A stretch of 64,000 nt of DNA, from positions 95,259 to 159,258 of the forward strand of contig SVKV01000001.1 of assembly GCA_015068305.1 (NCBI GenBank), given 5' to 3'. The notes beneath the pieces were generated by a model. The model had not been told where the DNA came from. It was given only the letters and a program-made list of their open reading frames with translations, and did no database searches. This document shows positions 1,515-30,559 of this stretch, piece after piece. Made by a program: the position numbers and the translations under genes. This DNA comes from Oscillospiraceae bacterium. GTDB lineage: Bacteria; Bacillota; Clostridia; Oscillospirales; Oscillospiraceae. Position 1 is the first letter of the stretch. Each line of letters begins with the position of its first letter.

Positions 1515-1691
1515 ATGAAAGCAACTGGTATCGTTCGCCGGGTCGACGACCTGGGCCGTATCGTCATTCCCAAGGAAATCAGAAGGACCCTCCGCATCCG
1601 GGAAGGTGACCCGCTGCTGAAAACATTGACAGTGTCAGATGGGTACTTATGGGCTATGGGAGAGCTGGGCAAGCGACTGCATAGTAAATGA
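1515..1691 (+). pseudogene. spoVT: spoVT 5' portion, interrupted by the integrative element
   Basis: A 58-codon frame starting at ATG 1515 behind AGGAGAG (1501-1507). Residues 1-34 are a near-perfect SpoVT/AbrB-type swapped-hairpin DNA-binding domain (MKATGIVRRVDDLGR, IVIPKEIRRTLRIREGDPL). After that the similarity stops abruptly and a 24-residue tail encoded by the inserted element follows. The rest of spoVT is found 28.5 kb away at 30115-30559. SpoVT is the forespore regulator acting with sigma G; the full protein has a C-terminal GAF-like sensor and tetramerises, so this fragment should bind DNA poorly or abnormally. A TATAAT at 1450-1455 may be part of its promoter. This frame is short and easily missed. 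Confidence 0.93.
1608..1612. other. attL core of the integrative element (GACCC)
   Basis: The sequence GAAGGTGACCCGCTG at the point where spoVT homology ends shares the core GACCC with GAGGGCGACCCCCTG at 30104-30118. Joining the bases left of and including this core to 30115 onward recreates an uninterrupted spoVT (…REGDPLEIYT…). The exact crossover pair within these 5 bases cannot be fixed from one sequence. Confidence 0.85.
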
Positions 1692-1778
1692 GCGAAAAAA
1701 GCAACGCGAACCTCGGATTATCTGGGTTTGTGAGCTTTATAATAATGCGTATTGTCGAAACTTTTTGCAATTCTAATA

Positions 1779-1807
1779 TTGCGGGTTGTGAGATTGTGTG
1801 CTAGTAT
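1779..1807 (+). promoter_or_regulatory. Promoter of the DUF4143 ATPase gene
   Basis: A -35 box TTGCGG (1779-1784) and a -10 box TAGTAT (1802-1807) are separated by 17 bp. The ATPase start codon lies 21 bases downstream behind GGAGGCGG. This is the first promoter inside the left end of the element. Confidence 0.6.
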
Positions 1808-1827
1808 AGTAGCGGAGGCGGTGTGAT

Positions 1828-3186
1828 ATGATCTTCAAAAGAAAGATTTACAATAGATTTCTGGCATGGAAAGCCGAATCCGGCGGAAAAAAAGCCCTGC
1901 TTGTGGAGGGCGCACGCCGAATTGGAAAGTCCACGGTGGTGGAAGAATTTGCAAAGCAGGAATATAAGAGCTATATTTTGATCGACTTTGCAAAAGCATC
2001 CGAGGATGAGAAATCCTATTTCCATCTGCACCTGAACGATCTGGATACCTTCTATATGCTGCTATCCGTGCAGTATGGTGTCGAGCTTCATCCCCGGGAA
2101 AGCCTGATTATCTTTGACGAAGTCCAGCTGTTCCCCAAGGCCAGGGAGGCAATCAAATATCTTGTGGCAGATGGCCGCTACGACTTCATTGAAACCGGTT
2201 CGCTGATCTCCATTAAAGAAAATGTCAAAGACATCGTGATCCCTTCCGAGGAGCGTCACATTAAGATGTATCCTATGGATTTCGAAGAATTCTGCTGGGC
2301 TTTGGGAGAGAAGCCTCTGATTCCATACATCCGCAGTTGCTTTGACAAGCGGGAACCGCTGGAGCGGAGCATCCACAACAAGGCTATGCTGCTGTTCAAA
2401 CAGTATCTGCTGGTTGGCGGTATGCCTAAGGCTGTGGCAGAATTTGTTGAGGGTCAGAAGAACTTCGGTGCGGCGGATATTGAAAAGCGGGATATTCTGG
2501 AGCTGTACCGCAGCGATATTATGAAGATCAAAGCGCAGTACCGGGCAAAGGTCCTGGCAATTTTTGATCAGATCCCCGGCCTGCTGTCCCGGCATGAGAA
2601 GCGGGTGGTGTTCAACCGCATCGTGGAAGGCTCCAGCGCGGAGCAATACGAGGAGACCTTCTTCTGGCTTTCCGATTCCATGGTCTGCAACGAATGCAGG
2701 CGGACCAATGATCCTAATGTGGGCTTGTCACTGAACGAGTCCGATACCTACATCAAATGCTATCTGGGGGATACCGGTCTGCTGGTCAGCCATGCCTTTG
2801 ATGAAAATGAGCTTCTGGAGGATGAGGTCTACAAACAGATCCTTGCCGGGAAACTGGGACTGAACGAGGGTATGCTCTATGAGAATATGATCGCCCAGAT
2901 GCTGGCCGCCAACGGACACCGCCTGTTCTTCTACACCCATTATAACGAGGAAAAGAAGCGTAACGATATCGAAATCGATTTCATCATTTCTAACAACAGC
3001 AAGACCAAGTACAGGATGTATCCCATCGAGGTCAAGTCCGGCACCAACTATACTACACAGTCCCTTCTGAAATTCCGGGAGAAATACAAGAGCCGGATCG
3101 GCGAATGCTATATCATCCATCCGCGCAATCTGACTGTCAAGGATGACATCCTTTGCATCCCGCCCTATATGACGATTTGCCTGTAA
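1828..3186 (+). CDS. AAA-type ATPase with C-terminal DUF4143 / nuclease-like domain
   Basis: This 452-residue protein has a Walker A loop GARRIGKST (residues 28-36) and a Walker B strand LIIFDEVQ (93-100), followed by a winged-helix region and a C-terminal DUF4143 part. The motif spread EIDFIISN … YPIEVKSG near residues 385-410 is the signature of a PD-(D/E)XK nuclease-like fold. Such ATPases are very common in anaerobic gut bacteria and on mobile elements; their biological role is not established. It stands alone next to attL with its own promoter and is the only element gene upstream of the IS remnant. A role in element maintenance or defence is possible but not shown. Confidence 0.85.
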   Translation: MIFKRKIYNRFLAWKAESGGKKALLVEGARRIGKSTVVEEFAKQEYKSYILIDFAKASEDEKSYFHLHLNDLDTFYMLLSVQYGVELHPRESLIIFDEVQLFPKAREAIKYLVADGRYDFIETGSLISIKENVKDIVIPSEERHIKMYPMDFEEFCWALGEKPLIPYIRSCFDKREPLERSIHNKAMLLFKQYLLVGGMPKAVAEFVEGQKNFGAADIEKRDILELYRSDIMKIKAQYRAKVLAIFDQIPGLLSRHEKRVVFNRIVEGSSAEQYEETFFWLSDSMVCNECRRTNDPNVGLSLNESDTYIKCYLGDTGLLVSHAFDENELLEDEVYKQILAGKLGLNEGMLYENMIAQMLAANGHRLFFYTHYNEEKKRNDIEIDFIISNNSKTKYRMYPIEVKSGTNYTTQSLLKFREKYKSRIGECYIIHPRNLTVKDDILCIPPYMTICL

Positions 3187-3317
3187 AGACCTTACCTATG
3201 TGAAAAACGGGGTTTAAAAACGTTACGAGCGTTTCTTTGTTGAGATGTGATTCCTTTCGCACGTGTGAACCAAACGACGAGAACCGGGAAAATTGACGTT
3301 GATTGTTCGACTATTGA

Positions 3318-3467
3318 CTATACAGGCTGCTATCAAAACTGGGGAGGCCTAATCCGTACTTCAAGTTTTCCATCGGCTACGAGGAAGCTCAAGAGTATAG
3401 AAAAGCCAAGGGTCAGTATTTAAGACCCTCTCAGTGGGAAGATCTCACCTGCGAGGTCTTTATCTGA
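3318..3467 (+). pseudogene. Unrecognised coding remnant without a start codon
   Basis: A short open frame from a stop at 3315 to TGA 3465-3467 encodes a plausible protein-like tail (FKFSIGYEEAQEYRKAKGQY and on), with no start codon or ribosome binding site. It reads like the 3' end of a gene whose 5' part was lost, but I cannot name the family. The remaining sequence of the 3187-3500 gap shows nothing else that I recognise. Confidence 0.3.
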
Positions 3468-3501
3468 ATAAGTTTTATCCCGGGTTACCATTTGATATAC
3501 T

Positions 3502-3547
3502 ACCCCCATAAGAGACAGTGAAAAAAGGAACTGTCTTTTATGGGGGT
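3502..3547 (+). promoter_or_regulatory. Hairpin covering the ribosome binding site of the IS3-type orfA
   Basis: Two 18-bp arms (3502-3519 and 3530-3547, one mismatch) form a long hairpin with a 10-base loop. The right arm contains the GGGGGTG ribosome binding site of the transposase frame starting at 3554. Insertion sequences commonly use such hairpins to block translation from read-through transcripts. Confidence 0.6.
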
Positions 3548-3553
3548 GTTTCA

Positions 3554-3916
3554 ATGTCCAAGAGGAAAAGGATAAAAGCAGAAGAAAAGATAAGTATAGC
3601 CCAAGCGTGCATAAGAGGAACAATAAGCATAAATGCAGCAGCAGAGAAGCTAGGTGTTCATCAAAGTGTGGTGGATGATTGGGTTCGCCAGTATGAAGCC
3701 GAGGGAGTACAAGCGTTTCTCCCACGGGCAGGAAATCGGCGATATGATCCAGCGCTTAAGGAAACTGCAGTGAAAGACTATCTATCAGGAAGAGGTAGCC
3801 TGCGAGAGATTTGCAGAATTTACAAAATTCAATATTCCGGGATACTATGCAAACCGATTGCCGGAACGATCTTTTATGCTGAAGAGTACAGCGTATTTGA
3901 TGGGATAGGCGTCTGA
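3554..3916 (+). pseudogene. Truncated IS3-family transposase OrfA
   Basis: From ATG 3554 about 94 residues resemble the OrfA helix-turn-helix subunit of IS3-family (IS150-like) transposases: MSKRKRIKAEEKISIAQACI, a second helical segment AAAEKLGVHQSVVDDWVRQY, and a second HTH unit ending at REICRIYKI. OrfA of this type is normally about 170 residues and is followed by an OrfB with a DDE catalytic core. Here the similarity stops near 3835, the frame drifts on to 3916, and no OrfB follows. It is a dead relic of an insertion sequence within the mobile element, between the ATPase and the arabinose operon. Confidence 0.7.
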
Positions 3917-4148: not shown

Positions 4149-4175
4149 CTTCAGAGAAAAAAGGAGTATGGCAAA

Positions 4176-4868
4176 TCAGTTTTGTCCGTAATAAGCGTTC
4201 TTGCCGTGTTTGCGCAAGTAGTGCTTATCCAGTAGTACCTGCTGCATGGTTTCCTTGCCAGGGGTAATGGTTTCCGTGTGGAATGCCATGAAGGCCAGTT
4301 CTTCGAGGACTACCGCATTGTGGACGGCATTGTGAGGGTCAGTTCCCCAAGTAAAGGGGCCATGAGAGTGGACAAGGACAGCAGGGATATCGTCAGGTTG
4401 CTTGCCTGTAAATGTCTCGATAATTACATTGCCGGTTTCCTTTTCGTATTCTCCCGCGATTTCCTCGGCAGTCATCTTCCGGGTGCAGGGAATCTCGCCG
4501 TAGAAATAGTCGCCATGGGTGGTGCCGTAGGCGGGAATGCCCCGGCCTGCCTGTGCCCAGCTGGTTGCCCAGCGGGAATGAGTATGGACAACACCGCCAA
4601 TATTGGGGAACGCATTGTACAGCGCCACATGGGTTGCCATATCGGAAGAGGGTTTCCACTTGCCTTCTACCTTTTCGCCGGTGGCAAGGGATACGACAAC
4701 CATATCCTCGGGCTTCATGTTGTCGTATTCCACACCGCTGGGTTTGATTACCATCAGACCCTTCTCCCGGTCAACACCGGATACATTTCCCCAGGTAAAA
4801 GTCACAAGGCCATACTTGGGCAGTTCCAGATTCGCCTTGCAGACGATTTCTTTTAATTCTTCCAGCAT
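4176..4868 (-). CDS. araD: L-ribulose-5-phosphate 4-epimerase
   Basis: AraD converts L-ribulose 5-phosphate to D-xylulose 5-phosphate, the last step feeding arabinose into the pentose phosphate or phosphoketolase pathway. The 230 residues match the usual length. Visible class II aldolase/epimerase features are GNVSG (27-31), the phosphate site KPSG (42-45), the zinc ligands in VVHTHS (H95, H97) and in LVHSHG (H167/H169), and D120 in THGD. It is the last gene of a five-gene leftward operon, 9 bases after araA, and is followed by a strong terminator. The start has GGTGATCCT upstream on the minus strand. Confidence 0.97.
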
Positions 4869-4877
4869 AGGATCACC

Positions 4878-6362: not shown

Positions 6363-7901
6363 TTAAATGACTTCAACAGCCTTGTGCTCCACTTCCAGAA
6401 GTTGCTTGTACTGCTTGATATATGTATTGAAACCGGCAACGTCAGCAGCCTCGGGAGCCAGAGTGGTACCCTTGGCATCTGCAAAAACATGGGCATTCAG
6501 GTAATCTTCCAGGGTCTCGCTCTCTGCTTTATTCACCATGTAAGCAGCAAGCAGGGCCATACCGTAGGGGCCGCCCTCACCTGCGGTTTCCATGCAGGTG
6601 ACGGGAGCATTGCAGGCTGCAGCCAGATATTTCTGACCGACAACAGGGGTCTTGAACAGGCCGCCGTGACCAGTAAGAGAATCGATAGCAACCTTCTCCT
6701 CCGCCAGAATGTCCATACCGATCTTCAGGGTGGACATGGTAGAATACAGAGTTGCCCGGAAGAAGTTGGCAAGGGTGAATTTGCTGTCAGGCTTACGGAC
6801 CACCATGGGGCGGCCGGCATCCATATGGGTCACACCCTCACCTGCCATGTAGTTGCAAACGAAGATTCCACCGCAGTCAGGATCGCCCTCAAGGGATTTC
6901 TCATACAGCTTGGTGTACAACTCACCAGTAGAAGGTTCTGCACCAAACAGTTCAGCAGTTTCCTTCAGAACGGAAACCCATGCATTGGAGTCGTTGGTGC
7001 AGTTGTTGCAGTGAACCATGGCAACGGGTTTGCCGGTGGGTGTAGTCACCAGGTCGATTTCCTCATATACCTTTTCCAGACTCTTTTCCAGAACCACCAT
7101 GGAGAAGATGGAGGTACCCGCGGACACGTTACCCGTCCGGGGCGCAACGGCATTCGTTGCAGTCATGCCGGTTCCTGCATCGCCTTCAGCAGGAGCAAAG
7201 GGAATTCCGGGAGCCAGCTGATTATCCAGCATGGCAGCGCCCTGCTCGGTCAGCTTGCCAGCCTCCTCGCCTGCCACCAGAACTGCGGGCAGAATATCGG
7301 TCAGATTCTTCCAAGGCAGGTTTTTATCAGATACCAGATGATCAAACTTCTTGAGCATCCCCTCATCGTAGCAGTTTTTCTCACTGTCAATGGGGAACAT
7401 ACCAGAGGCCTCGCCGATGCCGATGGCATTGACACCGGTCAGCATGTAATGCACATAGCCAGCCAGCGTAGTGATGTGGGCAATCCGTGAAATAAGCTCT
7501 TCACCATTCAGAACGGCCTGATACAGGTGCGCAATGCTCCAGCGCTGGGGAATGTTGAAGCCAAACAGTGCGGTCAGTTCCTCTGCTGCCTGTCCGGTGA
7601 TGGTATTCTGCCAGGTACGAAAAGGCACCAGCAGATTCCAGTCCTTGTCAAAGGCTAAGTAGCCGTGCATCATGGCGCTGATGCCCACAGCCTGGATGTT
7701 ATCACGGTTCTCAATGCCGGAAACTGCCGTTTTCAGTCCCTGCCAGACTTCCGCAAGATCATAGGTCCAAATGCCGTTTTCGTAGGTGCTCTTCCATGTA
7801 TAGTCACCGGAAGAAATCGGGATATGCTTTTCGTCAATGGCTACCGCCTTGATCCGGGTGGAACCAAGCTCGATGCCTAAATATGCCTTTTGCAAAGTCA
7901 T
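6363..7901 (-). CDS. araB: FGGY-family ribulokinase
   Basis: This 512-residue sugar kinase has the FGGY N-terminal phosphate loop YLGIELGSTRIKAVAID and a C-terminal ATP-binding half (GGLFKTPVVGQKYLAAA, GEGGPYGMA). Sitting directly upstream of araA and araD, it is expected to phosphorylate L-ribulose to L-ribulose 5-phosphate. The sequence looks closer to the XylB-like branch of the family than to classical E. coli AraB, so the substrate is inferred from context. I place the start at 7901, where AAGGAGC precedes the ATG by six bases; an upstream in-frame ATG at 7940 lacks a binding site. It is the third gene of the operon. Confidence 0.88.
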   Translation of the reverse strand: MTLQKAYLGIELGSTRIKAVAIDEKHIPISSGDYTWKSTYENGIWTYDLAEVWQGLKTAVSGIENRDNIQAVGISAMMHGYLAFDKDWNLLVPFRTWQNTITGQAAEELTALFGFNIPQRWSIAHLYQAVLNGEELISRIAHITTLAGYVHYMLTGVNAIGIGEASGMFPIDSEKNCYDEGMLKKFDHLVSDKNLPWKNLTDILPAVLVAGEEAGKLTEQGAAMLDNQLAPGIPFAPAEGDAGTGMTATNAVAPRTGNVSAGTSIFSMVVLEKSLEKVYEEIDLVTTPTGKPVAMVHCNNCTNDSNAWVSVLKETAELFGAEPSTGELYTKLYEKSLEGDPDCGGIFVCNYMAGEGVTHMDAGRPMVVRKPDSKFTLANFFRATLYSTMSTLKIGMDILAEEKVAIDSLTGHGGLFKTPVVGQKYLAAACNAPVTCMETAGEGGPYGMALLAAYMVNKAESETLEDYLNAHVFADAKGTTLAPEAADVAGFNTYIKQYKQLLEVEHKAVEVI

Positions 7902-7983
7902 AAATGCTCCTTGTCTTTTAGATTTTGCAAAATCCGCCATGTAAGGATATTACATGGCGGATTGCAGGAATCATATACGTTGT

Positions 7984-9369
7984 TTATTCTGCGGACTTAC
8001 GCGCAGTAAGAGTGCTTTCGATCTCGGGCATTTTCTTGTTGAGCTTGCTCAGGAAAATTGCACACACGATCAGCAGAACCATCAGAACCAGAGGAACAAT
8101 GCTGTAGAGCACGCGGATCATGGTAATCGCGCTTTCCGGCTGTACGGCGGTGCCATCCGTGGAGCTGATGAAGCCGGCAGCAGAGAGCAGGAAGCCAGTC
8201 ATTGCTCCACCCAGGCCCTGGCCGATCTGGGATGCAAAGTTATTGGAAACCACGGTGGTGGTAGAGTCCAGACGGGGCAGACCCAGATATTCATTGTAAG
8301 TGGACAGATCCATCAGAATCAGGCCACCCAGATAGGACAGAGGCAGGGTTACAACAGCGGTCATAATGCCGGCAACCAGCAGCATAGGGATGTTGCTTCC
8401 GGCAAAGAAGCACAGGCCATAGCCAACGCAAGCCAGAACTGCAGTAGCAGCAATGATCTGGGGTGCGCTAAACTTCTTCAGCAGCAGAGGCATAAACAGC
8501 ATCAGAGGCAGGATCATGATGGAGAACACACTGAAGATACCCATGATGGAGGTATTGCCCACCACATAAGTAAAGTAATAGGAAGAAACACCCAGACTGG
8601 TGATGCAGTTATAGGCCATCATAACACCGGCATACAGCCAGACATACTTATTACTTGCGATCATCTTAAAAATGGTCTTCAGGCTTACCTTGTCATGCTG
8701 GAGACCTGCATCGATGGAGGGATCTTCCTTAATGAACAGGAAACGGGGCAGACCCAGCAGAAGCATGGGCAGGCCATAGATCAGAATCAGCTGACGCCAT
8801 CCGGCCAAAGAGGTCGCAATGCTGCTCATCAGAACAGGGAAGGTCATGGAAACGACCATGGAGCCTGCCATAGTGATAAAGCCGCCGTAGGAACCCAGCT
8901 TACCCACCACTGTGCGGTTGGCGCTGAAAGCGCGGATCATATAGGGCTGCTGAGCCGCAGTACGGAAGGTGTTGAACACGCCGAAAGCAAAGGTGTACAT
9001 GAAGAACACCCACACGTTTTTCAGTGCACTGTTCCAACCGGCGGGGGTGTAAAACATCAGAATGGTGCAGATCCAAAGGCCAAGAATACCCAGCTCGTAG
9101 GGACGAACCTTGCCCCACTTGGTGACCTTGGAATTATCCACCACGTAGCAGCAGATCAGGTCAGTGATCGCATCCACGATGTTGCTCAGCAGCAGAATGG
9201 TACCTACGGTTGCCGGATTCATGCCCAGATAGTTGGTGCAGAACAGGGTCAGGTAGCTGTTGACGATGACAAAGCATGCTGCGCTGGAAACATCAGATGC
9301 TTTCCATGCCAGCAATCTGCCAAAGCCAAGTTTATTGGGATTTTTTACTTTTGTTTTGCCAAATGCCAT
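7984..9369 (-). CDS. GPH-family sugar:cation symporter
   Basis: This 461-residue transporter has about 12 hydrophobic segments and the start typical of glycoside-pentoside-hexuronide symporters (GFGRLLAWKASDVSSAACF), with the conserved loop after helix 2 (SNIVDAITDLICCYVVDN). GPH proteins are major-facilitator relatives that import sugars or small glycosides with protons or sodium. Lying between a GH2 enzyme and the arabinose genes, it most likely imports an arabinose- or galactose-containing oligosaccharide or free arabinose. The start at 9369 follows AAAAGGAGCG; the upstream ATG at 9411 has no site. It is the second gene of the leftward operon. Confidence 0.9.
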   Translation of the reverse strand: MAFGKTKVKNPNKLGFGRLLAWKASDVSSAACFVIVNSYLTLFCTNYLGMNPATVGTILLLSNIVDAITDLICCYVVDNSKVTKWGKVRPYELGILGLWICTILMFYTPAGWNSALKNVWVFFMYTFAFGVFNTFRTAAQQPYMIRAFSANRTVVGKLGSYGGFITMAGSMVVSMTFPVLMSSIATSLAGWRQLILIYGLPMLLLGLPRFLFIKEDPSIDAGLQHDKVSLKTIFKMIASNKYVWLYAGVMMAYNCITSLGVSSYYFTYVVGNTSIMGIFSVFSIMILPLMLFMPLLLKKFSAPQIIAATAVLACVGYGLCFFAGSNIPMLLVAGIMTAVVTLPLSYLGGLILMDLSTYNEYLGLPRLDSTTTVVSNNFASQIGQGLGGAMTGFLLSAAGFISSTDGTAVQPESAITMIRVLYSIVPLVLMVLLIVCAIFLSKLNKKMPEIESTLTARKSAE

Positions 9370-9455
9370 GATAAACGCTCCTTTTCTTTTTATAAAGGGT
9401 GATTCCATCACCCGAATTTATGTTTTGGATAGGCTGTCCAAGCTTCGAACAATGC

Positions 9456-11745: not shown

Positions 11746-11792
11746 TTTTTTACAAAATTCTGCGACAGTCTGATTACTAAACGAAAAAATGG

Positions 11793-11821
11793 TTGCCAGA
11801 GCGAAAAAACTACTGCATAAT
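11793..11821 (+). promoter_or_regulatory. Promoter of the AraC-type regulator gene
   Basis: TTGCCA (11793-11798) and CATAAT (11816-11821) are separated by 17 bp and lie 22 bases upstream of the start codon at 11843. It is divergent from the GH2 operon promoter; the shared palindrome at 11731-11745 lies about 50 bp upstream of its -35 box. Confidence 0.65.
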
Positions 11822-11842
11822 AAAGAAAAGGGGGCGCGCATT

Positions 11843-14667: not shown

Positions 14668-14790
14668 ATGGCACACCTCCATTGTTTTGTTTCAGTATAT
14701 CAGCCAATCCCGGAGGTGAATAGCCAATATTTGGGGTATTTTATCGTTTTTTCGTTTCTTTGCGGTATTCAGCGAAAAAACAGCAAAGAA

Positions 14791-14833: not shown

Positions 14834-14865
14834 TTTATTAGAAATCTATATTGGGAGGTAATATC

Positions 14866-21071: not shown

Positions 21072-23282
21072 ATGCGTAATGTTATGAATCTGAATCGCAA
21101 GTGGGCATTCAGAAAAGCGGCAGGTGCGGTTCCCGCAGAAGTTCCCAAGGACTGGGATTTTGTCAATCTTCCTCATTCCTGGAATGCCATTGATGGTCAG
21201 GACGGCAACGGCGATTACTACCGCGGCACGGCCTTTTATGCCAAGTCCATTGACAAGCTGGACCTTCCCAAGGGAGAAAAGTATTTCCTGGAAATCCGGG
21301 GTGCAAACTCCTCCGCCAAGGTCTACTGGAACGGAAAGCTGATGGCAGAGCACCACGGCGGTTATTCCACATGGCGTGTGGATGTTTCCGCCGAGATTGC
21401 GGATACGAATCTTATCGTCTTTGAACTGGACAATGCCCCCAACAAGACGGTCTATCCCCAGACTGCAGACTTCACTTTCTATGGCGGATTGTACCGTGAT
21501 GTCAATCTGATTGCGGTACCTGCCAGCCACTTTGATCTGGAATTTTTCGGTGGCAGCGGTCTGACTGTTACGCCTGTCATGGACGGCGATCATGCCAATG
21601 TTGATGTACAAGTCTGGGTCAAGAACAAGCAGGAAAGCCAGAAGCTGAAGTACACCCTGAAGGATGCCGCGGGCCATGTTGTGGCAGAAGCTGTTTCTGA
21701 CGATACAAAGGCCTCCTTTGTCCTCGAAAATGCCCACAAGTGGCATGGCCGCAAGGATCCTTATCTGTATACCGCCAGTGTTCAGCTGCTGGATGGGGAA
21801 GCCGTTTTGGACTGCGTAACGACCCGCTTTGGTTGCCGCAGTTTTGCAGTGGATCCGGAACGTGGCTTCATCCTCAATGGCGAAGAATATCCCCTGCGCG
21901 GTGTCGCCCGGCATCAGGACCGGTGGGGAGTCGGCAACGGGCTGCTTCCTGAGCATCATGAAGAAGATATGGATCTGATCTGCGAGGTGGGAGCCAACAC
22001 CATCCGTCTGGCCCACTATCAGCATGACCAGTATTTCTATGACCTGTGCGATGAGCGGGGCATGGTGATCTGGGCAGAGATTCCCTATATCACCGGGCAC
22101 CTGACTGACGGTGTGGAAAACACTGTCTCTCAGATGAAAGAGCTGGTGATCCAGAACTACAATCATCCCAGCGTCGTAGTCTGGGGACTTTCCAATGAGA
22201 TCAATGCAGGAAACGGCATGGATGATCAGGTGGTGCCCAATCATGTGCTGCTGAATGATATCTGCCATGAATTGGACAAGACCCGACTGACCACTCTGGC
22301 AGCAGTTTCTGCCTGCGACACCGATCATGAATACCTGCGCATTCCCAACTGCGTCAGCTATAACCAGTATTTCGGTTGGTATGGCGGCGAGTTGAGTGAC
22401 TATGGTACCTGGTTTGACAAATTCCATGCTGACCACCCTGACATCCCCATTGGTGTCTCCGAATACGGCTGCGAGGCGTTGAACTGGCACAACTCCAGAC
22501 CGGAACCCGGTGATTACTCCGAAGAGTACCAGGCAATTTACCACGAGGAAGTCATCAAGCAGCTCTTCCCCCGGAAGTACCTGTGGGCCACCCATGTGTG
22601 GAATATGTTCGACTTCGGTGCGGACGGACGTAACGAAGGCGGCGAGGATGGCCAGAATCACAAGGGCCTGGTGACCTTTGACCGCAAGTATAAGAAGGAC
22701 TCCTTCTACGCCTATAAGGCATGGCTGTCCGATGCGCCCTTTGTCCATATCGGCGGCAAGCGCTACGTTGACCGGGTGGAGGATGTGACGAAGGTCACTG
22801 TTTATTCCAACCAGCCTTCTGTGGAGCTGTTTGCAAACGGTGTTTCTCTGGGTGTGAAGGTAGCGGAGGACCACTTCTTCCGCTTTGAGGTTCCCAATGT
22901 GGGCACCACCCATCTGACTGCCGTCGCAGGCGAATGGAAAGATGAAAGCGTCATCCATAAGGTTCCGGAACCCAATCCTGATTACATCCTGAAGGAAAAG
23001 GGCGCGGTGCTGAACTGGTGGGACATTACCGAGGTGGAAGGCTGCTGCAGCCTGAATACGAAGGTTAGAACCGTTATTGCAAGTGCCGGAATGGACGAAA
23101 CCTGCAATCTGCTCAAACCCATTCTGGGTCCGACCGCTGATCCCAGAGCAATAGGGGTGCTGGATTCCCAGAGTGTTCTGCGTATGGTCAACCTGCTGAC
23201 CGGCATGCTTCGGATTCCTGTTACAAAGGAACAGCTGATGGAGTTGAATCAGAAACTAAATCGTATTCATCTGAAGGTATAA
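21072..23282 (+). CDS. Glycoside hydrolase family 2 (beta-galactosidase-like)
   Basis: The 736-residue enzyme closely follows the GH2 at 9456: shared FTFYGGLYRDVNLI, GVARHQDRWGVGN, LAHYQHDQYFYDLCDE and the same catalytic contexts (GLSNEINAGNG for acid/base, IGVSEYGCEALN for the nucleophile). Both have an extra C-terminal segment of roughly 100 residues after the last Ig-like domain, but the two segments hardly resemble each other. No signal peptide is visible. It lies in the unit with the second GPH symporter and starts at ATG 21072 behind GAAAGGAGT. The two GH2 genes look like paralogues that separated long ago. Confidence 0.88.
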   Translation: MRNVMNLNRKWAFRKAAGAVPAEVPKDWDFVNLPHSWNAIDGQDGNGDYYRGTAFYAKSIDKLDLPKGEKYFLEIRGANSSAKVYWNGKLMAEHHGGYSTWRVDVSAEIADTNLIVFELDNAPNKTVYPQTADFTFYGGLYRDVNLIAVPASHFDLEFFGGSGLTVTPVMDGDHANVDVQVWVKNKQESQKLKYTLKDAAGHVVAEAVSDDTKASFVLENAHKWHGRKDPYLYTASVQLLDGEAVLDCVTTRFGCRSFAVDPERGFILNGEEYPLRGVARHQDRWGVGNGLLPEHHEEDMDLICEVGANTIRLAHYQHDQYFYDLCDERGMVIWAEIPYITGHLTDGVENTVSQMKELVIQNYNHPSVVVWGLSNEINAGNGMDDQVVPNHVLLNDICHELDKTRLTTLAAVSACDTDHEYLRIPNCVSYNQYFGWYGGELSDYGTWFDKFHADHPDIPIGVSEYGCEALNWHNSRPEPGDYSEEYQAIYHEEVIKQLFPRKYLWATHVWNMFDFGADGRNEGGEDGQNHKGLVTFDRKYKKDSFYAYKAWLSDAPFVHIGGKRYVDRVEDVTKVTVYSNQPSVELFANGVSLGVKVAEDHFFRFEVPNVGTTHLTAVAGEWKDESVIHKVPEPNPDYILKEKGAVLNWWDITEVEGCCSLNTKVRTVIASAGMDETCNLLKPILGPTADPRAIGVLDSQSVLRMVNLLTGMLRIPVTKEQLMELNQKLNRIHLKV

Positions 23283-23482: not shown

Positions 23483-24856
23483 ATGGCATCTAATTCTGCA
23501 CAGCAAAATATGGGTACCGGCAGCATCAAAAAGCTGATGGTACAGATGGCCGTCCCAGCAGTTGTCGGACAGCTCATCAACCTCTTATATAACATTGTTG
23601 ACCGAATCTATATCGGCCATATCCCCGGTATTGGTGGAACTGCTTTGACCGGTGTTGGCTTATTCACGCCGATTTTGATGCTGCTCACTGCTTTTGCTAT
23701 GATGCCCGGTGCCGGTGGTGCACCACGGGCTGCGATTTCTATGGGTAAAGGGGATCAGGAAGACGCAGAAAAAATCATCGGCAACTGTTTTACTGTTCTG
23801 GTGGCCTTTTCCATTGTGCTGACAGTGATCCTTTATGCTGCTGCACCAGCACTCCAGAAGTTGTTTGGTGCAAGTGACAGCACACTGCCTTATGCATTGG
23901 AGTATGGCAGAATTTATATTCTGGGAAGTATTTTCGTGCTGATTGTGATGGGTATGAATCCCTTTATCACAACCCAGGGCTTTGCCAAGACCAGCATGCT
24001 GACCACCATTATTGGCGCGGTCATCAATATCGTACTGGACCCCATTCTTATTTTCGGATTTGATATGGGCGTTGCAGGCGCAGCGATTGCAACAGTACTC
24101 AGTCAGGCAGTCAGCGCTATTTGGATTCTCTGTTTCCTCTCAGGCAAGAAGACAATTTTGAAGCTGAAGCCTGCCAATATGAAGTTGGTTCCCAGCGTGA
24201 TCCTGCCCTGTCTTGCTTTGGGCATTTCTTCCTTTGTGATGACATCCACAGAGAGCCTGCTGTCTGTCAGCTTCTCTTCCAGCCTGTCCCGGTATGGTGG
24301 TGACTTGGCTGTTGGTGCTATGACAGTGCTCACCAGCATCAACCAACTGGTAACCATGCCAATGTCCGGAATTTGCCAGGGTGGACAGCCTCTGATCAGC
24401 TACAATTATGGTGCTAAGAAATTTGACCGGGTCAAAGAAGCGTTCTACTGCCAGTTTTTCGTCTGTGTTGGTTATGCCACCGTATTCTGGCTTCTGTTAA
24501 TGGCCGCACCCCATGTATTTGCCGGTGTCTTTACCAGTGATACCGCGCTGGTCGAGTACACCACTTGGGCAATCCGTATCTTTGCGGCATGTGTTTTCTC
24601 CATTGGTTTCCAGCTCAGCTGCCAGCAGGCATTTATGGCTCTGGGACAGGCAAAAGCAAGTCTGTTCCTTGCATGTCTGCGTAAATTGCTGTTGCTGATT
24701 CCGTTGATCTTTATTCTGCCTAATTTCTTTGAGGATAAAGTATTTGCGGTGTTCCTTGCGGAGCCGGTCAGTGATTTTGTTGCTGCAGCGATCACAACCA
24801 TTACTTTCTTTGTGTTCTTCCGTAAAATGATGAAGCGGAGTCAGAGTGACTTGTAA
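23483..24856 (+). CDS. MATE-family efflux transporter
   Basis: The 457-residue protein has 12 hydrophobic segments in two related halves and the MATE start pattern (KLMVQMAVPAVVGQLINLLYN, VDRIYIGHI). Such proteins export cationic drugs, dyes or metabolites using a sodium or proton gradient. The start follows GAAAGGAGCACATCGCA. It lies 200 bases after the GH2 gene on the same strand and directly before the transfer module. Substrate unknown; it may be accessory cargo. The 23283-23482 gap shows no gene that I can support. Confidence 0.9.
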   Translation: MASNSAQQNMGTGSIKKLMVQMAVPAVVGQLINLLYNIVDRIYIGHIPGIGGTALTGVGLFTPILMLLTAFAMMPGAGGAPRAAISMGKGDQEDAEKIIGNCFTVLVAFSIVLTVILYAAAPALQKLFGASDSTLPYALEYGRIYILGSIFVLIVMGMNPFITTQGFAKTSMLTTIIGAVINIVLDPILIFGFDMGVAGAAIATVLSQAVSAIWILCFLSGKKTILKLKPANMKLVPSVILPCLALGISSFVMTSTESLLSVSFSSSLSRYGGDLAVGAMTVLTSINQLVTMPMSGICQGGQPLISYNYGAKKFDRVKEAFYCQFFVCVGYATVFWLLLMAAPHVFAGVFTSDTALVEYTTWAIRIFAACVFSIGFQLSCQQAFMALGQAKASLFLACLRKLLLLIPLIFILPNFFEDKVFAVFLAEPVSDFVAAAITTITFFVFFRKMMKRSQSDL

Positions 24857-24909: not shown

Positions 24910-25269
24910 GTGACGCTTGAATTTCTCCCGCTACCGCTTCGAGTTACGGAGCAGCGCTGCCTTTTTGCTTTGGTGCAGTATGAGAGGCTGTTGCGGTCCT
25001 GGAAGAAACACTATGCACCCCAAAAGCCTAAGGAACCTTTCCACGATAGATTCGTGGAAGGGTGTCAGCGGGAAAGCTTCATCGCTCATCTGATTGATGA
25101 AATGATGGATGCGGATCCCTGGCGGCGCAAGCAGGCAGTGGAGCTTCTATTAGAAGATGACCGAATCCATCGCCTGCAAAATTACGTGTTACAAAATCAA
25201 GAGGAGGTAACAAAAATGAACGTCTGTAAAAGAAATGAGGAATCCGGAAATGGCGGACATTGTTCTTGA
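24910..25269 (+). CDS. Hypothetical protein of the transfer module, start uncertain
   Basis: An open frame from a stop near 24886 to TGA 25267-25269 encodes about 119 residues, mostly charged and helical (LIDEMMDADPWRRKQAVELL). I do not recognise the family. No ribosome binding site precedes the GTG at 24910, and the frame is open only a few codons further up, so it may be the 3' part of a gene truncated when the MATE cargo was acquired. Within it, a strong GAGGAGG (25201-25207) precedes an in-frame ATG at 25216 that would give a 17-residue peptide. It overlaps the start of the helicase gene by 20 bases. Confidence 0.45.
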   Translation: MTLEFLPLPLRVTEQRCLFALVQYERLLRSWKKHYAPQKPKEPFHDRFVEGCQRESFIAHLIDEMMDADPWRRKQAVELLLEDDRIHRLQNYVLQNQEEVTKMNVCKRNEESGNGGHCS

Positions 25270-26563
25270 GAGTCCCTTTGGCCCTGAATGGCTCGCAGGG
25301 GATAAGATCAATGAACTGGAATTCTGCAAAGCTTTTCTGGAGCAGCACCCGATGATCTGTATCCACGGGACGTTCTTCACCACCGACGGGCGGGTGACCG
25401 ATGAAAACAAGCTGAAGAAAAAGATTCTCGAATGGATCTCACCTTATGTATTTGCCGGGATCCCCAAGAAGATCACCAATCTGCTGGATACCATGCGGGT
25501 ACTGGCCTACTCGGAGCCTCTGCCCACCTATACGGACCGAATCTTCCTTGCCAACGGTACCTATTACCTGTCCGGTGAGTTTGAAGAATCCAGGGATTTC
25601 TGCATGAACCGCTTGCCGGTTGCCTATAACCCCGATGCACCGGAGCCGGTACAGTGGCTGAAGTTTGTGAGCCAGCTGCTGCATGAGGACGATATCCCCA
25701 CGCTGCAGGAATACATGGGGTACTGTCTGATTCCCTCCAATAAGGGGCAGCAGATGCTGTTTCTGGTCGGTAAGGGCGGCGAGGGAAAATCCAGAGTGGG
25801 CCTTGTGATGCGGGCACTGCTGGGTGACAACATGTGCAACGGCTCCATTCAGAAGGTAGAGACCAATCCCTTTGCCAGAGCAGATCTGGAGCATCTGCTT
25901 GCCATGGTGGATGATGATATGAAGCTGGAGGCCCTGCCCCAGACCAACTACATCAAAACTATCGTCACAGCAGAGCAGCCTCTGGATCTGGAGAAAAAAG
26001 GAAAGCAGAGCTACCAGGGCTGGCTGTACTCCCGGTTTATGGTGTTTGGAAACGGTGTGATGAAATCCCTCTATGACCGGAGCGAGGGCTTTTTCCGGCG
26101 CCAGCTGATTCTCTCCGTAAAGGAAAAGGAGAAAGACCGATATGACGATCCCTTTATCGCAGAAAAGATGTGCGCGGAAGCCGAGGGTATCCTCCTGTGG
26201 GCGCTGGAAGGTCTTAGACGGTTGATTCAGCAGAATTTCCACTTTACCACCAGTGAGCGAACCAAGGCAAATCGGGAGGAAGCGATCCGGGACGGCAACA
26301 ACATTGTGGAATTCATGGAGTCAGAAGGCTATTTTCGATTCAAGTCAGATGCCGAGATCTCATCCACTGACTTCTATGCAATTTATACCCTGTGGTGCAG
26401 CGAGAATTCGGAAAAGCCCCTGGCACCCCGAAGCTTCAGCAGCTACCTCATCCAACATGAGAAGGACTACAATCTGGAATACAGCAACAATGTGATGAAT
26501 CAGGGAAATCGCAGAGTCAGAGGTTTTTGGGGGATTGAACCGCTCGTAAAGGTTTTTACGTAA
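25250..26563 (+). CDS. Phage/plasmid P4-type SF3 helicase (replication protein)
   Basis: The 437-residue protein matches the C-terminal two thirds of P4-like primase-helicases: a D5_N-type region (about residues 25-130), then an SF3 helicase core with Walker A LVGKGGEGKS near 173-182 and Walker B LLAMVDDDMK near 220. A distal winged-helix part follows (STDFYAIYTLWCSEN). The primase half usually found N-terminal is missing. Such proteins help rolling-circle or theta replication of mobile elements after excision. I prefer ATG 25250 (GAGGA at 25237-25241) over ATG 25235. It is the first clear gene of the transfer module. Confidence 0.82.
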   Translation: MADIVLESPFGPEWLAGDKINELEFCKAFLEQHPMICIHGTFFTTDGRVTDENKLKKKILEWISPYVFAGIPKKITNLLDTMRVLAYSEPLPTYTDRIFLANGTYYLSGEFEESRDFCMNRLPVAYNPDAPEPVQWLKFVSQLLHEDDIPTLQEYMGYCLIPSNKGQQMLFLVGKGGEGKSRVGLVMRALLGDNMCNGSIQKVETNPFARADLEHLLAMVDDDMKLEALPQTNYIKTIVTAEQPLDLEKKGKQSYQGWLYSRFMVFGNGVMKSLYDRSEGFFRRQLILSVKEKEKDRYDDPFIAEKMCAEAEGILLWALEGLRRLIQQNFHFTTSERTKANREEAIRDGNNIVEFMESEGYFRFKSDAEISSTDFYAIYTLWCSENSEKPLAPRSFSSYLIQHEKDYNLEYSNNVMNQGNRRVRGFWGIEPLVKVFT

Positions 26564-26803: not shown

Positions 26804-26989
26804 ATGCCCCGAATGTCAAAAAAGAGGAAACAGGAACTATCCCTGTTCCTGAACGAACGAGGCCGTGTGGAATACAACATCCTTTGCCGCCGATGTGTAC
26901 ATAACTGCAAGCAGGCGTACAGGGTACTGGTGATTGAATGCGGCCGGTATTTATCGAAACGAGCCAAGGAGGTACAAGAAAAGGAATGA
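26804..26989 (+). CDS. Small cysteine-rich accessory protein of the mobilization operon
   Basis: A 61-residue basic protein starting at ATG 26804 behind AAGGAGGG. Four cysteines (CRRCVHNC near residues 28-35 and one near 46) could bind zinc. Its stop overlaps the start of the relaxase gene (ATGA), so the two are translationally coupled. Small basic proteins at this place often assist the relaxase at oriT, but I do not know this family's function. Confidence 0.75.
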   Translation: MPRMSKKRKQELSLFLNERGRVEYNILCRRCVHNCKQAYRVLVIECGRYLSKRAKEVQEKE

Positions 26990-27960
26990 AAGCACAATAT
27001 GCGATCCTGCGGTTCGCCAAGTATAAAGGTCCCACTGTGAGTCGGATCGAAGCGCATAACGAGAGAACCAAGGAAACCTACGCCAGCAATCCGGATATTA
27101 AGACGGAACTGAGCAAGCACAATTTCCACCCTGTCACCCCTGATGGTAAATACCGTGATATTTCCAACCGGATTATCCGGGAGAATGGTTGCCGGGTCCG
27201 GAAGGACAGTGTCACCGCTGTGGAGGTACTGATTACCGCTAGCCCGGAATTCTTTGAGAAAAAGAATCGCAAGGAAATCCGGGAGTTCTTCTCCTATGCG
27301 GTGGATTTTATGAAATCCAAGCAGAACCCCGATACTTATATTTCTGCCGTGGTGCATGTGGACGAGAAGACTCCCCACATGCACCTTTGCTTTGTCCCCA
27401 TCACTCCCGATGGACGGCTCAGCGCAAAGGAAATCGTGGGAAACAAGAAGCGTCTGACCCAATGGCAGGATGAATTCTGGAGCTACATGGTGAAGAAATA
27501 CCCCGATTTTGAACGGGGAGAATCTGCCAGGCTTACCGGAAGAACCCATATCCCGCCCCGAATGTTCAAGCAGGCTGCCCGGTTGAACCGGCAGAAGGAC
27601 AAGCTGATGCAGCTTCTGTCTGAGATGAATCCCCTCAACGCCAAAGCCAAATCCAAGGAAATTGCCACTTTGCTGGATGAATATGTCCCCGGGGTGGAGG
27701 AGCTGATGACCAAGCTGAAGAAAACTAGCAAAGCTGCCAAGGAGATGCGCAGTGAGATTGCGGATCTGAAGAAAGAGGTCAACAGCAGCAAGGCCAGTGC
27801 CCTTCGCCAGCTGGAGCTGGAGAAGAAAGTGCAGGAACTGGATGACCTGCAGCACATGGTGGAAACACTCCGGCAGACCATGGATGCGATTCCTAAAGAA
27901 ATTGTCGCGCAGTACCGTACTGCTGAAAAAGGAGAGAACGCTTATTCGCATCAAAAGTAA
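26986..27960 (+). CDS. MobV-family relaxase (Mob/Pre)
   Basis: The 324-residue protein begins with the MobV pattern (YAILRFAKYKG, IEAHNERTKE) and carries the metal-binding HUH-like motif HVDEKTPHMHL (about residues 121-131). The C-terminal third is a coiled coil (about residues 230-310). MobV relaxases nick the element at oriT and pilot the single strand into a helper element's secretion channel. The start at 26986 overlaps the upstream stop by four bases; an earlier in-frame ATG at 26938 lies inside the previous gene. No coupling protein is present, which supports mobilization in trans. Confidence 0.93.
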   Translation: MKAQYAILRFAKYKGPTVSRIEAHNERTKETYASNPDIKTELSKHNFHPVTPDGKYRDISNRIIRENGCRVRKDSVTAVEVLITASPEFFEKKNRKEIREFFSYAVDFMKSKQNPDTYISAVVHVDEKTPHMHLCFVPITPDGRLSAKEIVGNKKRLTQWQDEFWSYMVKKYPDFERGESARLTGRTHIPPRMFKQAARLNRQKDKLMQLLSEMNPLNAKAKSKEIATLLDEYVPGVEELMTKLKKTSKAAKEMRSEIADLKKEVNSSKASALRQLELEKKVQELDDLQHMVETLRQTMDAIPKEIVAQYRTAEKGENAYSHQK

Positions 27961-28001
27961 AAAGATTGGAAATACTATCCAGAGAAAAGGAGGCGGTTTC
28001 C

Positions 28002-28274
28002 ATGGAGATTGAGCGTAACGAGGAAAAGAAGATCATTTCCGTCTGGCTGACAAAGGCGGAATCCCAGGATCAGGAGCTCCAGCGCCGCCTGAAAGCCTTG
28101 TATCCCAAATGGAAGAAGGAAAAATACTTGGTTGCCGTCTATCACTCCGGTAAGGAGGATTTGTTTGAAAGCACATTGGCGTTGCTGGCATATAACAAGA
28201 AGCGCTGTGCGGAGTTGGCCGTTCAGAGAGAACGGGAGCAGAAAACGAAAGTGTCTGTCCAGCCGGAACGGTGA
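28002..28274 (+). CDS. Small accessory protein downstream of the relaxase
   Basis: A 90-residue, charged protein starting at ATG 28002 behind AAAGGAGGCGG. It contains a compact segment (KKIISVWLTKAESQDQ, YPKWKKEKYLVAVYHSGKED) that recurs, in my recollection, as a conserved small protein next to relaxases in gut mobile elements, but I cannot assign a function. It closes the mobilization operon and is followed by a strong terminator that separates it from the recombinase gene. Confidence 0.7.
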   Translation: MEIERNEEKKIISVWLTKAESQDQELQRRLKALYPKWKKEKYLVAVYHSGKEDLFESTLALLAYNKKRCAELAVQREREQKTKVSVQPER

Positions 28275-28282
28275 GAGAAGCG

Positions 28283-28318: not shown

Positions 28319-28322
28319 CCTC

Positions 28323-28379
28323 TTGCAATCTCAAAATGCATATTGTACAATGTTGTCTATAAGAGATATACAATAGACA
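28323..28379 (+). promoter_or_regulatory. Promoter and operator-like repeats of the recombinase gene
   Basis: TTGCAA (28323-28328) and TACAAT (28346-28351) are spaced by 17 bp. The -10 region lies inside a perfect 10-bp palindrome ATTGTACAAT (28342-28351), and a further inverted repeat TGTCTAT/ATAGACA (28354-28360, 28373-28379) follows. These could bind a repressor that controls integration and excision. Confidence 0.6.
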
Positions 28380-28402
28380 GATAAGATTGAATGGAGGCCA
28401 AT

Positions 28403-30559
28403 ATGACTTCAATTTACAACATAGCGGGCTACACCCGCATCTCGGTGGACGATGAACAAACCAAAGATAATGTCTCCATTGAAAACCAAAAGGCGATCAT
28501 AGAGGACTTTGTAAAAAGCAAATTTCCCGGCAGCAGCCTTACCTTCTTTGAAGACAGGGACCGCTCCGGCTACACCTTTGAGCAGCGGGAAGGCTATCAG
28601 ACCATGCGCAAAGCGCTGATCAGCCACGAATATGACATTCTGGTAGTCAAGGATTTCTCCCGTTTCTCCCGCCGAAACTCCCGTGGTTTGGTGGAGCTGG
28701 AGGATCTGAGAGATGCCGGTGTCCGCATAATCTCTATTGGCGATGGCATCGACTTTCCCAACGATGACGACTGGCTGAAGATTCAGTTCCAGTTCCTTAT
28801 CAACGAAATGCCCGTCACAGACACCTCCAAGAAAGTCAAGAATGTGATCCGCCGCCGTCAGCTGGATGGAAAATGGATCTGTGCCGCTCCCTATGGCTAC
28901 ATCATCAACGACTGCAATGAGTTTGAGGTTGTCCCCACAGAAGCGGACATCGTCCGTAAAATCTTCCATCTATACAATGTGGAAGGCTGGGGCTACAAGA
29001 AGATTTCCAACTATCTGACGGAGCAGGGCATCCCCACACCCCGTATGTGTGAGCAGATGCGGAAAGAGACAAAAAATAAGCCCTATAACCGCAAGGTAAA
29101 TGCCGCGTGGGCAATCGTTACGGTTCAGGGCATTCTGGACAATGATTTTTACATTGGAACCTTCCGGCAGGCTAAATACACCCGGGCCAAGATCAACGGC
29201 AAGGATGTGAAGCGGGATGAGGGTGAGCACATCGTCATTGAGAATCACCATCAGCCCATCATCGACTACCGCACCTTTGCCGTGACCCGGGATCTACGGG
29301 AAAAGCGCACCCGTTCCAATTACCGGGGCGTGAAAAAATACGACAATGTGTACTCCGGATTTCTGGAATGCGGTGACTGCGGCAGTCCCATGTTTGCCAT
29401 GAGCCGTGGGGATCTGAAGCCTGCGTACACCTGCGGCACTTATCACCGTCGGGGTCTGGCAGGCTGCACTAGCCACCACATCCGGGTGGACGTTCTGGAC
29501 GATCTGCTTCGGGCCTATATCCGAAGGGTAATGGAAAACTCTGCTGCCATGCTGGAAAAGCTGAATGCTGAGCTCAGCCACGAAAACGACGATATTGCAG
29601 AAACCGAGCAATCCGCCGATCATCTGGCTGAAATTCTGGAGCAGCTGCAGGAGGAACTGAAAACCACCAAGCGGCAGCGCATCCGGGAGATCATGAAAAA
29701 GCCGGAACAGGAAGCTGTTCTGGAAGAGCTGTACGATGAGCTGGAAGCGGAGCTGATGCAGAAAATTGACGGATTGAATCATCAGATTGAAATGCTCTCC
29801 GACAAGCGAAACACCATTATTCTGGTGAACCGCTCCGCCAAGACTACCATGGATGTGTTCCGGGATGTTCTGGAAAAGCAGACACTGGAGCGGAATGATC
29901 TGGAGCTGATCATCGACCGCATCAAGGTTTACGAAGATCACCTGGACATTCAGCTGAAACCGGATATCGACATTCTCTTAAAATGCGGTTTGGAGGGACT
30001 TGCCGCAAATTTTAAGTCAGGCATCGAGGATATCTCATTGACCCGTATCGTCCAGAAGGCAACCCACCAGAAGGACAAGGTCTTCGATGTCAATGTTATC
30101 AGTGAGGGCGACCCCCTGGAGATCTATACGGAAAAGGACGGGGGCGTGATCTTCCGGAAGTACTCCCCCATGGGGGATCTGCAGGAATTTGCTTCCCATA
30201 TGTGCGAGGCCATCGGCGGAGCAACGGGGTGCATCGCGGCGGTTTCCGACCGGGATTCCATCATTGCCCTCAGCGGTGCGCCCAAGCGGGAGCTGATGGA
30301 CAAGCCAAACTCGGCGGAGCTGGACCGGCTGATGGAACAGCGGAAATACTACCGCTACCAGGAGGGAGAGACCCCCATCCGGGCCTCTGAGGCGACGGAA
30401 AAGTACCATCTGGGGGTGGCTGCGCCGATTCTGTCCCAGGGTGATTTGATGGGCTGCGTGATGCTGCTGCTCCAGGAGCACGATAAGCCCCTGTCCGAAT
30501 CCGACCAGGTCCTGGCCCAGACAGCGGCAAGATTCCTGGGCAAACAGATGGAAAGCTAA
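28403..30559 (+). CDS. Large serine recombinase fused in frame to the SpoVT C-terminal domain
   Basis: Residues 1-569 are a large serine recombinase: resolvase domain with YTRIS (catalytic S14, R12), VSIENQ and KDFSRFSRR, then a recombinase domain (GKWICAAPYGYI), a zinc ribbon (ECGDCG, and later cysteines in YTCGTYHRRGLAGC) and a long coiled coil (about 375-470). At codons for GDP (569-571) the frame passes through the att core into spoVT, so residues 572-718 are the SpoVT GAF-like sensor domain (EIYTEKDGG, ending FLGKQMES). In the excised circle the same frame would instead end with an element-encoded tail (LLKTLTVSDG…), giving 596 residues. The start at 28403 follows TGGAGGCC; ATG 28391 overlaps that site. 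Confidence 0.93.
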   Translation: MTSIYNIAGYTRISVDDEQTKDNVSIENQKAIIEDFVKSKFPGSSLTFFEDRDRSGYTFEQREGYQTMRKALISHEYDILVVKDFSRFSRRNSRGLVELEDLRDAGVRIISIGDGIDFPNDDDWLKIQFQFLINEMPVTDTSKKVKNVIRRRQLDGKWICAAPYGYIINDCNEFEVVPTEADIVRKIFHLYNVEGWGYKKISNYLTEQGIPTPRMCEQMRKETKNKPYNRKVNAAWAIVTVQGILDNDFYIGTFRQAKYTRAKINGKDVKRDEGEHIVIENHHQPIIDYRTFAVTRDLREKRTRSNYRGVKKYDNVYSGFLECGDCGSPMFAMSRGDLKPAYTCGTYHRRGLAGCTSHHIRVDVLDDLLRAYIRRVMENSAAMLEKLNAELSHENDDIAETEQSADHLAEILEQLQEELKTTKRQRIREIMKKPEQEAVLEELYDELEAELMQKIDGLNHQIEMLSDKRNTIILVNRSAKTTMDVFRDVLEKQTLERNDLELIIDRIKVYEDHLDIQLKPDIDILLKCGLEGLAANFKSGIEDISLTRIVQKATHQKDKVFDVNVISEGDPLEIYTEKDGGVIFRKYSPMGDLQEFASHMCEAIGGATGCIAAVSDRDSIIALSGAPKRELMDKPNSAELDRLMEQRKYYRYQEGETPIRASEATEKYHLGVAAPILSQGDLMGCVMLLLQEHDKPLSESDQVLAQTAARFLGKQMES
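30110..30114. other. attR core of the integrative element (GACCC)
   Basis: This GACCC lies in GAGGGCGACCCCCTG (30104-30118) inside the recombinase reading frame. Everything to the right is spoVT; everything to the left is element. It matches the core at 1608-1612. Confidence 0.85.
30115..30559 (+). pseudogene. spoVT: spoVT 3' portion (GAF-like sensor domain)
   Basis: The sequence encodes the C-terminal 147 residues of SpoVT, from LEIYTEKDGG to the typical end LGKQMES. Joined to the first 33 codons at 1515-1613 it gives 180 residues, against 178 in Bacillus subtilis SpoVT. It has no start of its own; while the element is integrated it can be translated only as the tail of the recombinase. Confidence 0.92.

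Follow-up and report, generated by a model that had tools for sequence, protein, structure and literature searches.

A 28.5-kb element divides spoVT and is predicted to trade the tail of its own serine recombinase for the SpoVT sensor domain

We analysed a stretch of 64,000 nucleotides from an Oscillospiraceae bacterium (the window), in which a 28.5-kb element splits the sporulation gene spoVT at codon 33. Very probably, this element carries its predicted attachment (att) site within its own recombinase gene, and its integration swaps a 25-residue tail of the recombinase for the SpoVT sensor domain, leaving the tail on the spoVT stub. The reading builds on both spoVT halves and their shared core, an in-frame fusion that recurs among relatives, mosaic junctions, intact alleles, and a tail conserved at the protein level. 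The host bacterium is likely a gut inhabitant. Published systems are cited by PMC number and described as far as excerpts of those papers do.

Structure of the interrupted gene

The features of the element are listed in Table 1. Positions 1515-1613 encode SpoVT residues 1-33 (TIGR02851 positions 1-33), followed in frame by 25 foreign residues; the last sense codon of this stub ends at 1688, and the stop codon occupies 1689-1691. The remaining half of SpoVT is found at the end of a 722-aa fusion comprising the Resolvase (residues 11-162), Recombinase (182-306), zinc ribbon (321-377), and SpoVT_C (596-721) domains. The first three, in this order and all over their Pfam cut-offs, characterize a large serine recombinase. 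Ser18, which we take to be the catalytic residue, is invariant in 43 sequences.

Between the two GACCC cores, the element measures 28,502 bp. The bases beside the cores differ (GGT and GGC before, G and C after), which confines the exchange to these five bases. When 1612 is joined to 30115, exactly 180 codons and a stop codon result. The reconstituted protein is identical to an intact 180-aa SpoVT in the protein database (P0241) at 178 of 180 residues and to a second intact SpoVT (P0242) at 176 of 180. A search of the whole window genome (2.12 Mb in 62 contigs, 95% complete) found no further SpoVT besides the two halves and an AbrB paralogue matching the first 51 positions. The initial annotation had described both halves, the core, and an open fusion frame, all of which are present by coordinates and domain calls; the exact 180-codon spoVT that it expected from core-to-core excision agrees with the computed join and the intact protein.

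Table 1. Features of the element and its junctions; positions refer to the window.
Feature	Position	Strand	Basis or remark
SpoVT N-terminal stub with 25-aa element-encoded tail, 58 aa	1515-1688	+	TIGR02851 positions 1-33; MKATG...REGDP then LLKTLTV...KRLHSK
attL core GACCC	1608-1612	+	Same as 30110-30114; predicted crossover dinucleotide GA at 1608-1609
Right attP arm, ending in CATTGACA (1624-1631)	1613-1631	+	Recurrent among stubs
AAA_14 / DUF4143 ATPase, cargo	1828-3186	+	Family match
Transposase-type helix-turn-helix protein, probably an insertion sequence remnant	3518-3916	+	HTH_28, HTH_Tnp_1
araD	4176-4868	-	TIGR00760 over cut-off
araA	4878-6350	-	PRK02929 over cut-off
FGGY-family kinase	6363-7940	-	Matches below cut-offs
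MFS_2 sugar transporter	7984-9411	-	Family match
GH2	9456-11675	-	Family match
AraC-type regulator	11789-13066	+	Family match
GH43	13105-14682	-	Family match
GH1	14851-16164	+	Family match
GH2	16168-18597	+	Family match
TetR-type regulator	18733-19356	-	Family match
MFS_2 sugar transporter	19569-20978	+	Family match
GH2	21072-23282	+	Only by 46% similarity to the first GH2
MATE-family transporter	23483-24856	+	PF01554, TIGR00797
P4-family primase / D5-like helicase	25235-26563	+	TIGR01613 over cut-off
MobV-family relaxase	26938-27960	+	NF041497 over cut-off
102-aa recurrent recombinase partner	27966-28274	+	No Pfam family
722-aa large serine recombinase, in-frame fusion to SpoVT_C	28391-30559	+	Domain searches, one frame
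Left attP arm within recombinase frame, consensus TGTCAATGTTATCAGTGAC	30088-30106	+	107 stretches compared
attR core GACCC	30110-30114	+	Same as 1608-1612
SpoVT C-terminal half (GAF-type domain), own stop codon	30115-30559	+	PF15714, 6e-38; matches PDB 2w1t residues 31-177

Recurrence of the fusion among relatives

The fusion is a family trait and the rule in this recombinase family. Among the best 120 of 8,000 scored homologues of the fusion, all 120 carry SpoVT_C and the GDPLE junction. From a scan of GTDB species genomes, 80 of 187 relatives were kept, with identities of 68-92% and with isolates among the named genomes; cultured carriers include Pseudoflavonifractor sp. MSJ-30 and Agathobaculum butyriciproducens DSM 100391. 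At 79 of these 80 loci the recombinase runs in frame into SpoVT_C, as verified with a profile from 27 intact SpoVT C-terminal halves; one of the 79 (L090) ends at a contig end. The fragmentation of the window assembly could raise the thought of a chimeric contig, which is scarcely credible: the same junction recurs at 79 of 80 loci, isolates among them, and an assembly error is thus unlikely.

Among 147 genomes of the order, the matches listed at 49% identity or more numbered 13, and 12 of these were fused to SpoVT_C. The thirteenth, a recombinase of 53% identity in genome G158, continues in frame into the C-terminal portion of a DUF6506 gene, near position 4011 of L220 (G158:C157), the same exchange at another gene. 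G158 has an intact spoVT elsewhere, and no other genome was found in which an intact spoVT accompanies a member of this recombinase family. The next match listed, of 48% identity (G071), is an unfused 531-aa recombinase; the many matches of 34% identity or less are not part of the fused/unfused count. G309, with a 586-aa open frame, was rejected as a fusion carrier because an intact SpoVT was found. Since the fusion recurs in many relatives, insertion likely rewires the inserting enzyme.

Mobility of the element

The 36 genus relatives were divided into 18 with a near-full-length SpoVT, three with a SpoVT lacking the first 6-9 positions, five with the fusion, and 10 with neither. Two of the last group (G030 and G036) bear a tail-bearing stub, and the other half was not found. 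In 17 genomes, stub and fusion share a contig and a strand, with a spacing of 6.8-38.3 kb. The flanking synteny (sortase, zinc-ribbon, and dap genes) gave a single match as an empty-site test, in stretches that were mostly short, and the intact alleles were used instead. No plasmid record more than 60% identical to the recombinase was found. As side observations, stub and fusion stand in opposite orientation in G225 (L225, G225:C2 151941) and in reversed order in G451 (L154/L218, G451:C23), pointing to later rearrangement at these sites.

The two parts of the fusion are mosaic. P0001 is 96.5% identical in the recombinase and 78% in SpoVT_C, and P0041 is 76% and 99.3% identical, respectively. 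Pairwise comparison covered 198 fusions, that is, 201 minus L082 and L103 (without the junction motif used) and L090 (for its length). From the resulting 19,503 pairs, 270 had recombinases at least 95% identical yet SpoVT_C at most 80% identical, and 13 had SpoVT_C at least 97% identical yet recombinases at most 82% identical. The halves have been reassorted between relatives, and the junction therefore behaves as an att site.

If the recombinase-SpoVT fusion were a stable gene that is inherited vertically and no longer mobile, this would agree with how common the fusion is, with a frame that is open nearly always, and with the partly dependent distances of the two halves (rank correlations of 0.42 across all 19,503 pairs and 0.12 among the 3,003 locus pairs). 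However, this explanation is already largely refuted by the mosaic halves, and intact alleles of the same gene, differing element sizes, and the presence of fused and intact genomes within one genus also oppose it. We consider it very improbable.

Site-specific integration into the REGDPLE codons, as the initial annotation had proposed, is supported by the intact allele, the genus distribution, the mosaic halves, and the inverted repeat on the core described below; that it was recent is plausible. The relatives with intact spoVT to which the annotation had pointed exist, both as the alleles P0241 and P0242 and in the 18 genus relatives. A fusion beside a separate intact spoVT, which it had named as contrary evidence, was also sought, and full-length SpoVT was found in none of 42 fused genomes: the six fused genus members (window included), 19 of 24 further genomes searched, and 17 of another 18, where 16 of the 24 and all of the 18 had been picked as known fusion carriers, the eighteenth (G309) was intact, and a few genomes stand under a second handle in the two sets. 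The fusion that gave the annotation its title thus stands, but not as the accident of one genome, since it is the rule in the family. That annotation did not note that, in the circle, the stub tail would form the predicted C-terminus of the recombinase itself, nor that the arrangement is family-wide.

The attachment site

In a comparison of 107 fusion-junction stretches, several of which are the same site fetched twice, the left arm TGTCAATGTTATCAGTGAC directly precedes GGNGACCC, and the stubs bear the right arm with CATTGACA. In the joined window ends, 15 of 22 positions pair as an inverted repeat whose midpoint falls between the G and the A of GGCG/ACCC. The next best centre had 11 paired positions, and 15 of 22 was equalled by 8 of 2,000 simple shuffles. 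Serine integrases have an attP that is an inverted repeat with a dinucleotide at its centre (PMC5595907), and because the centre of the repeat falls between G and A, the crossover dinucleotide is likely GA. As the recombinase frame takes in both the left arm and the core, the circular form would encode a recombinase ending in LLKTLTVSDGYLWAMGELGKRLHSK.

An att-arm-like sequence, AATGTTGTC, was also noted upstream of the recombinase at 28349-28357. AATGTTRTC occurs on either strand within approximately 130 bp upstream in 19 of 80 loci, against 0.28 expected from shuffles, which suggests that the recombinase may regulate itself from this upstream sequence.

The exchanged tail

Among the best 120 stub homologues, 118 have a simple aromatic motif and 105 have LWAM; as these were ranked by likeness to the window stub including its tail, the uniformity is partly a selection effect. 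In 59 aligned stubs (58 chosen by hand and the window's), Y44 and W46 never vary. Third codon positions are the most variable in 20 DNA tails taken from the loci. For tail codons 10-21, beyond the att arm, the proportions of nonsynonymous (pN) and synonymous (pS) differences were 0.39 and 0.81 when all pairs are taken and 0.22 and 0.77 for 58 similar pairs, with the pairs being non-independent, pS near saturation, and the 58 pairs picked by protein similarity, which lowers pN. The tails of the stubs beside the spoVT cassettes of G033, G012, and G022 (see below) are more divergent. AlphaFold2 (AF2) places a helix at stub residues 40-56 with modest confidence (mean predicted local distance difference test, pLDDT, 67). 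Judged by its codon pattern, the 25-aa tail is conserved as a protein.

There is a considerable chance, a little short of even, that the tail swap is real but inert. The attP would merely overlap the end of the integrase gene, catalysis would be alike with any C-terminus, and the fusion would be read-through. The G158 family member, fused to DUF6506 instead, fits this explanation and indicates that a frame can stay open without SpoVT_C. Additionally, the direction of serine integrases is usually set by a separate small factor (PMC5595907), and the 102-aa partner is at hand. On the other side, protein-level conservation of the tail extends past the att arm, and the frame across the core is kept down to 49% recombinase identity.

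Besides the dependence between the two halves and the constraints on the tail pairs given above, several results weigh against an exchange of recombinase ends on integration. A DNA pattern of recombinase plus tail, representing the free or circular form, had no match in IMG/VR. The tail pattern had 10 matches in 300 family genomes, consisting of eight stubs (the window's included) and two chance sites, with none of the attP type. The recombinase of L082, the one exception among the 80 loci, departs from the fusion right after the core, near a contig end. The conservation of the tail could serve the stub rather than the recombinase, or the two together, because both share the frame. The AF2 model of the fusion, which shows long helices at 366-495 as a predicted coiled coil, is weak (pLDDT 68; predicted TM-score, pTM, 0.32). 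Finally, the spoVT halves of G071 lie 240 kb apart and have different arms. These halves (L194 8988-9449 and L217 near 1281, G071:C2) have the same core on opposite strands, with the arms CCGTATGTAT and ATACATACGG, and we read them as a second att specificity at the same spoVT site.

Proposed mechanism

Under the exchange of recombinase ends on integration, the circular attP would consist of TGTCAATGTTATCAG...GGCGACCC...CATTGACA, with the two arms as putative recombinase-binding half-sites and strand exchange presumably at the GA dinucleotide. Excision would give back both spoVT and the native-tailed recombinase. In the integrated state, the host would be without SpoVT, and the chimera is predicted to be the only recombinase form made; its activity on attL x attR probably departs from that of the tailed recombinase. 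In this way the protein itself would signal whether its DNA is inserted, and it could be coupled to the input that the SpoVT domain perceives; the exchange may set the direction or timing of recombination. From sequence evidence, this would be a serine integrase whose C-terminus depends on whether the element is integrated or free, with a putative regulatory effect of the swap.

A further proposal, tentative and rather doubtful, is that the host donates a control domain to the integrase at each insertion. Free DNA would give a helix-tailed integrase set for insertion, and inserted DNA would give a SpoVT chimera whose excision answers to a sporulation sensor; spoVT would be the landing platform, and trailing cassettes would re-supply its upstream region and first half.

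Integrases must know inserted from free DNA, and in this family recombination may write that information into the protein. Such proteins would be natural integrase-sensor chimeras for engineering.

Cassettes and a second insertion point in spoVT

Short units were observed between a tail-bearing spoVT stub and an intact spoVT, two in G033 (L038, G033:C18, 8331-10793) and one in G012 (L039, G012:C21, 120-1734). Each unit ends with a fresh spoVT upstream region and first half, an integron-like arrangement with the gene rebuilt at each step, and on insertion these cassettes would restore spoVT. The same arrangement is probably present in G022 across a contig gap (L044/L045); a decayed upstream copy was seen in G685 and weak fragments in G011 and G034.

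Codons 11-12 of spoVT mark a second insertion point, found in L139 (IMG/VR 3300022601_001083), L242 (G002), L241 (G017), and L039 (G012), with two recurring upstream sequence types. Three genes reading by eye as serine recombinases adjoin this point in L139. The cassettes beside spoVT, the second insertion point, and the split sigG described below suggest recurrent targeting.

Cargo and accessory genes

The araD-araA-kinase cluster is predicted to serve L-arabinose use. The 102-aa partner lies on the recombinase's strand in 79 stretches and at most 0.3 kb upstream of it in 47 of those; among 106 stretches, the partner was found in 82 and the recombinase in 97. From its position alone, it would be a candidate directionality factor, which stays a guess because it occurs also in stretches where no recombinase was found. 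The relaxase was present in eight stretches and the primase in five (window included), and the window cargo recurs in few of the 105 other stretches, many of which are partial and some of which are one site fetched twice. An integrative mobilizable element is defined by an integrase and a relaxase without a transfer apparatus of its own. The element here has a recombinase and a MobV relaxase, and transfer genes and oriT were not the target of any search. With sugar-utilisation genes, a MobV relaxase, and a primase, the element is probably mobilised by helper elements.

Sporulation context

Bacillus SpoVT is a tetrameric, sigma-G-dependent forespore regulator with a GAF-type domain whose ligand is unidentified; deleting spoVT leaves B. 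subtilis with defective spores and severely impairs sporulation in B. cereus (PMC5061766). We searched 27 genomes, 21 of them fused carriers, and found SpoIVA in all 27. The SigG family cut-off was reached by none of the 27. A near-full-length SigG match was present in 15 of the 21 fused carriers and in all six genomes with intact spoVT; in three carriers the match was split or partial (G019, G020, and G225), and in the remaining three (G000, G023, and G102) none of that grade was among the matches listed. Some carriers may therefore have lost sporulation.

A skin-like developmental element, whose excision during sporulation restores spoVT as in sigK, spsM, and gerE, would share its general plan with known gene-intervening elements, and SpoIVA in every genome and SigG in 15 of 21 carriers are in its favour. 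We nevertheless regard it as unlikely. In Bacillus, sigma-G drives SpoVT production in the forespore (PMC5061766), a compartment in which excision would change the germ line rather than a mother cell that dies; moreover, sigG appears to be lacking or is split in several carriers.

The split or partial sigG genes are interrupted near residues 90-95 (L166/L167 in G019, L168 in G020, and L169 in G225). In G019 and G225, a gene reading by eye as a serine recombinase precedes the second half of sigG. The data suggest that mobile DNA repeatedly turns off or gates sporulation in this order.

Comparison with known systems

The targets of known gene-intervening elements are commonly expressed in the mother cell. 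These elements include skin in sigK, SPbeta in spsM, gin in gerE, and yin in yabG (PMC5595907, PMC10747680, PMC4191935, PMC5025042). Like them, the window element encodes a serine recombinase, splits a sporulation gene, has short core repeats, and would make the interrupted gene whole by excision. Unlike them, it targets spoVT, a forespore gene in Bacillus, its recombinase is fused to the severed half, and it carries sugar cargo. The element appears to work like skin-type elements and is not classed as one, because the forespore expression of SpoVT in Bacillus argues against it.

The archaeal suicidal tyrosine integrases (SSV1, pTN3, and pT26-2) also have attP inside the integrase gene and are altered by integration; a 2021 review calls them exclusively archaeal (PMC8371274). 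Whereas their tyrosine recombinase is split into inactive parts, the window enzyme is a bacterial serine recombinase whose catalytic and DNA-binding domains are whole, with only the C-terminus traded for a host domain. We read it as a bacterial serine counterpart of the suicidal integrases, minus the suicide.

In the integration-dependent immunity of mycobacteriophage BPs, attP lies in a regulator gene, and integration changes the C-terminus and activity of the product (PMC4557955). The BPs repressor loses a degradation tag, whereas here the integrase would lose a tail and gain a host sensor domain. With large serine integrases (CcrB, XisF, and phage types), the recombinase shares the Resolvase, Recombinase, and zinc-ribbon domains and a long predicted coiled coil, but here the reading frame crosses the att site. 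Among open-licence PMC papers judged by title and the start of the abstract, we found no relevant earlier report of spoVT interrupted by a serine recombinase or mobile element. None of the compared systems, as the excerpts describe them, unites a serine integrase with an att site in its coding frame and the capture of a host domain; the gene-intervening elements, the suicidal integrases, and the BPs immunity system each have one feature in common with the element.

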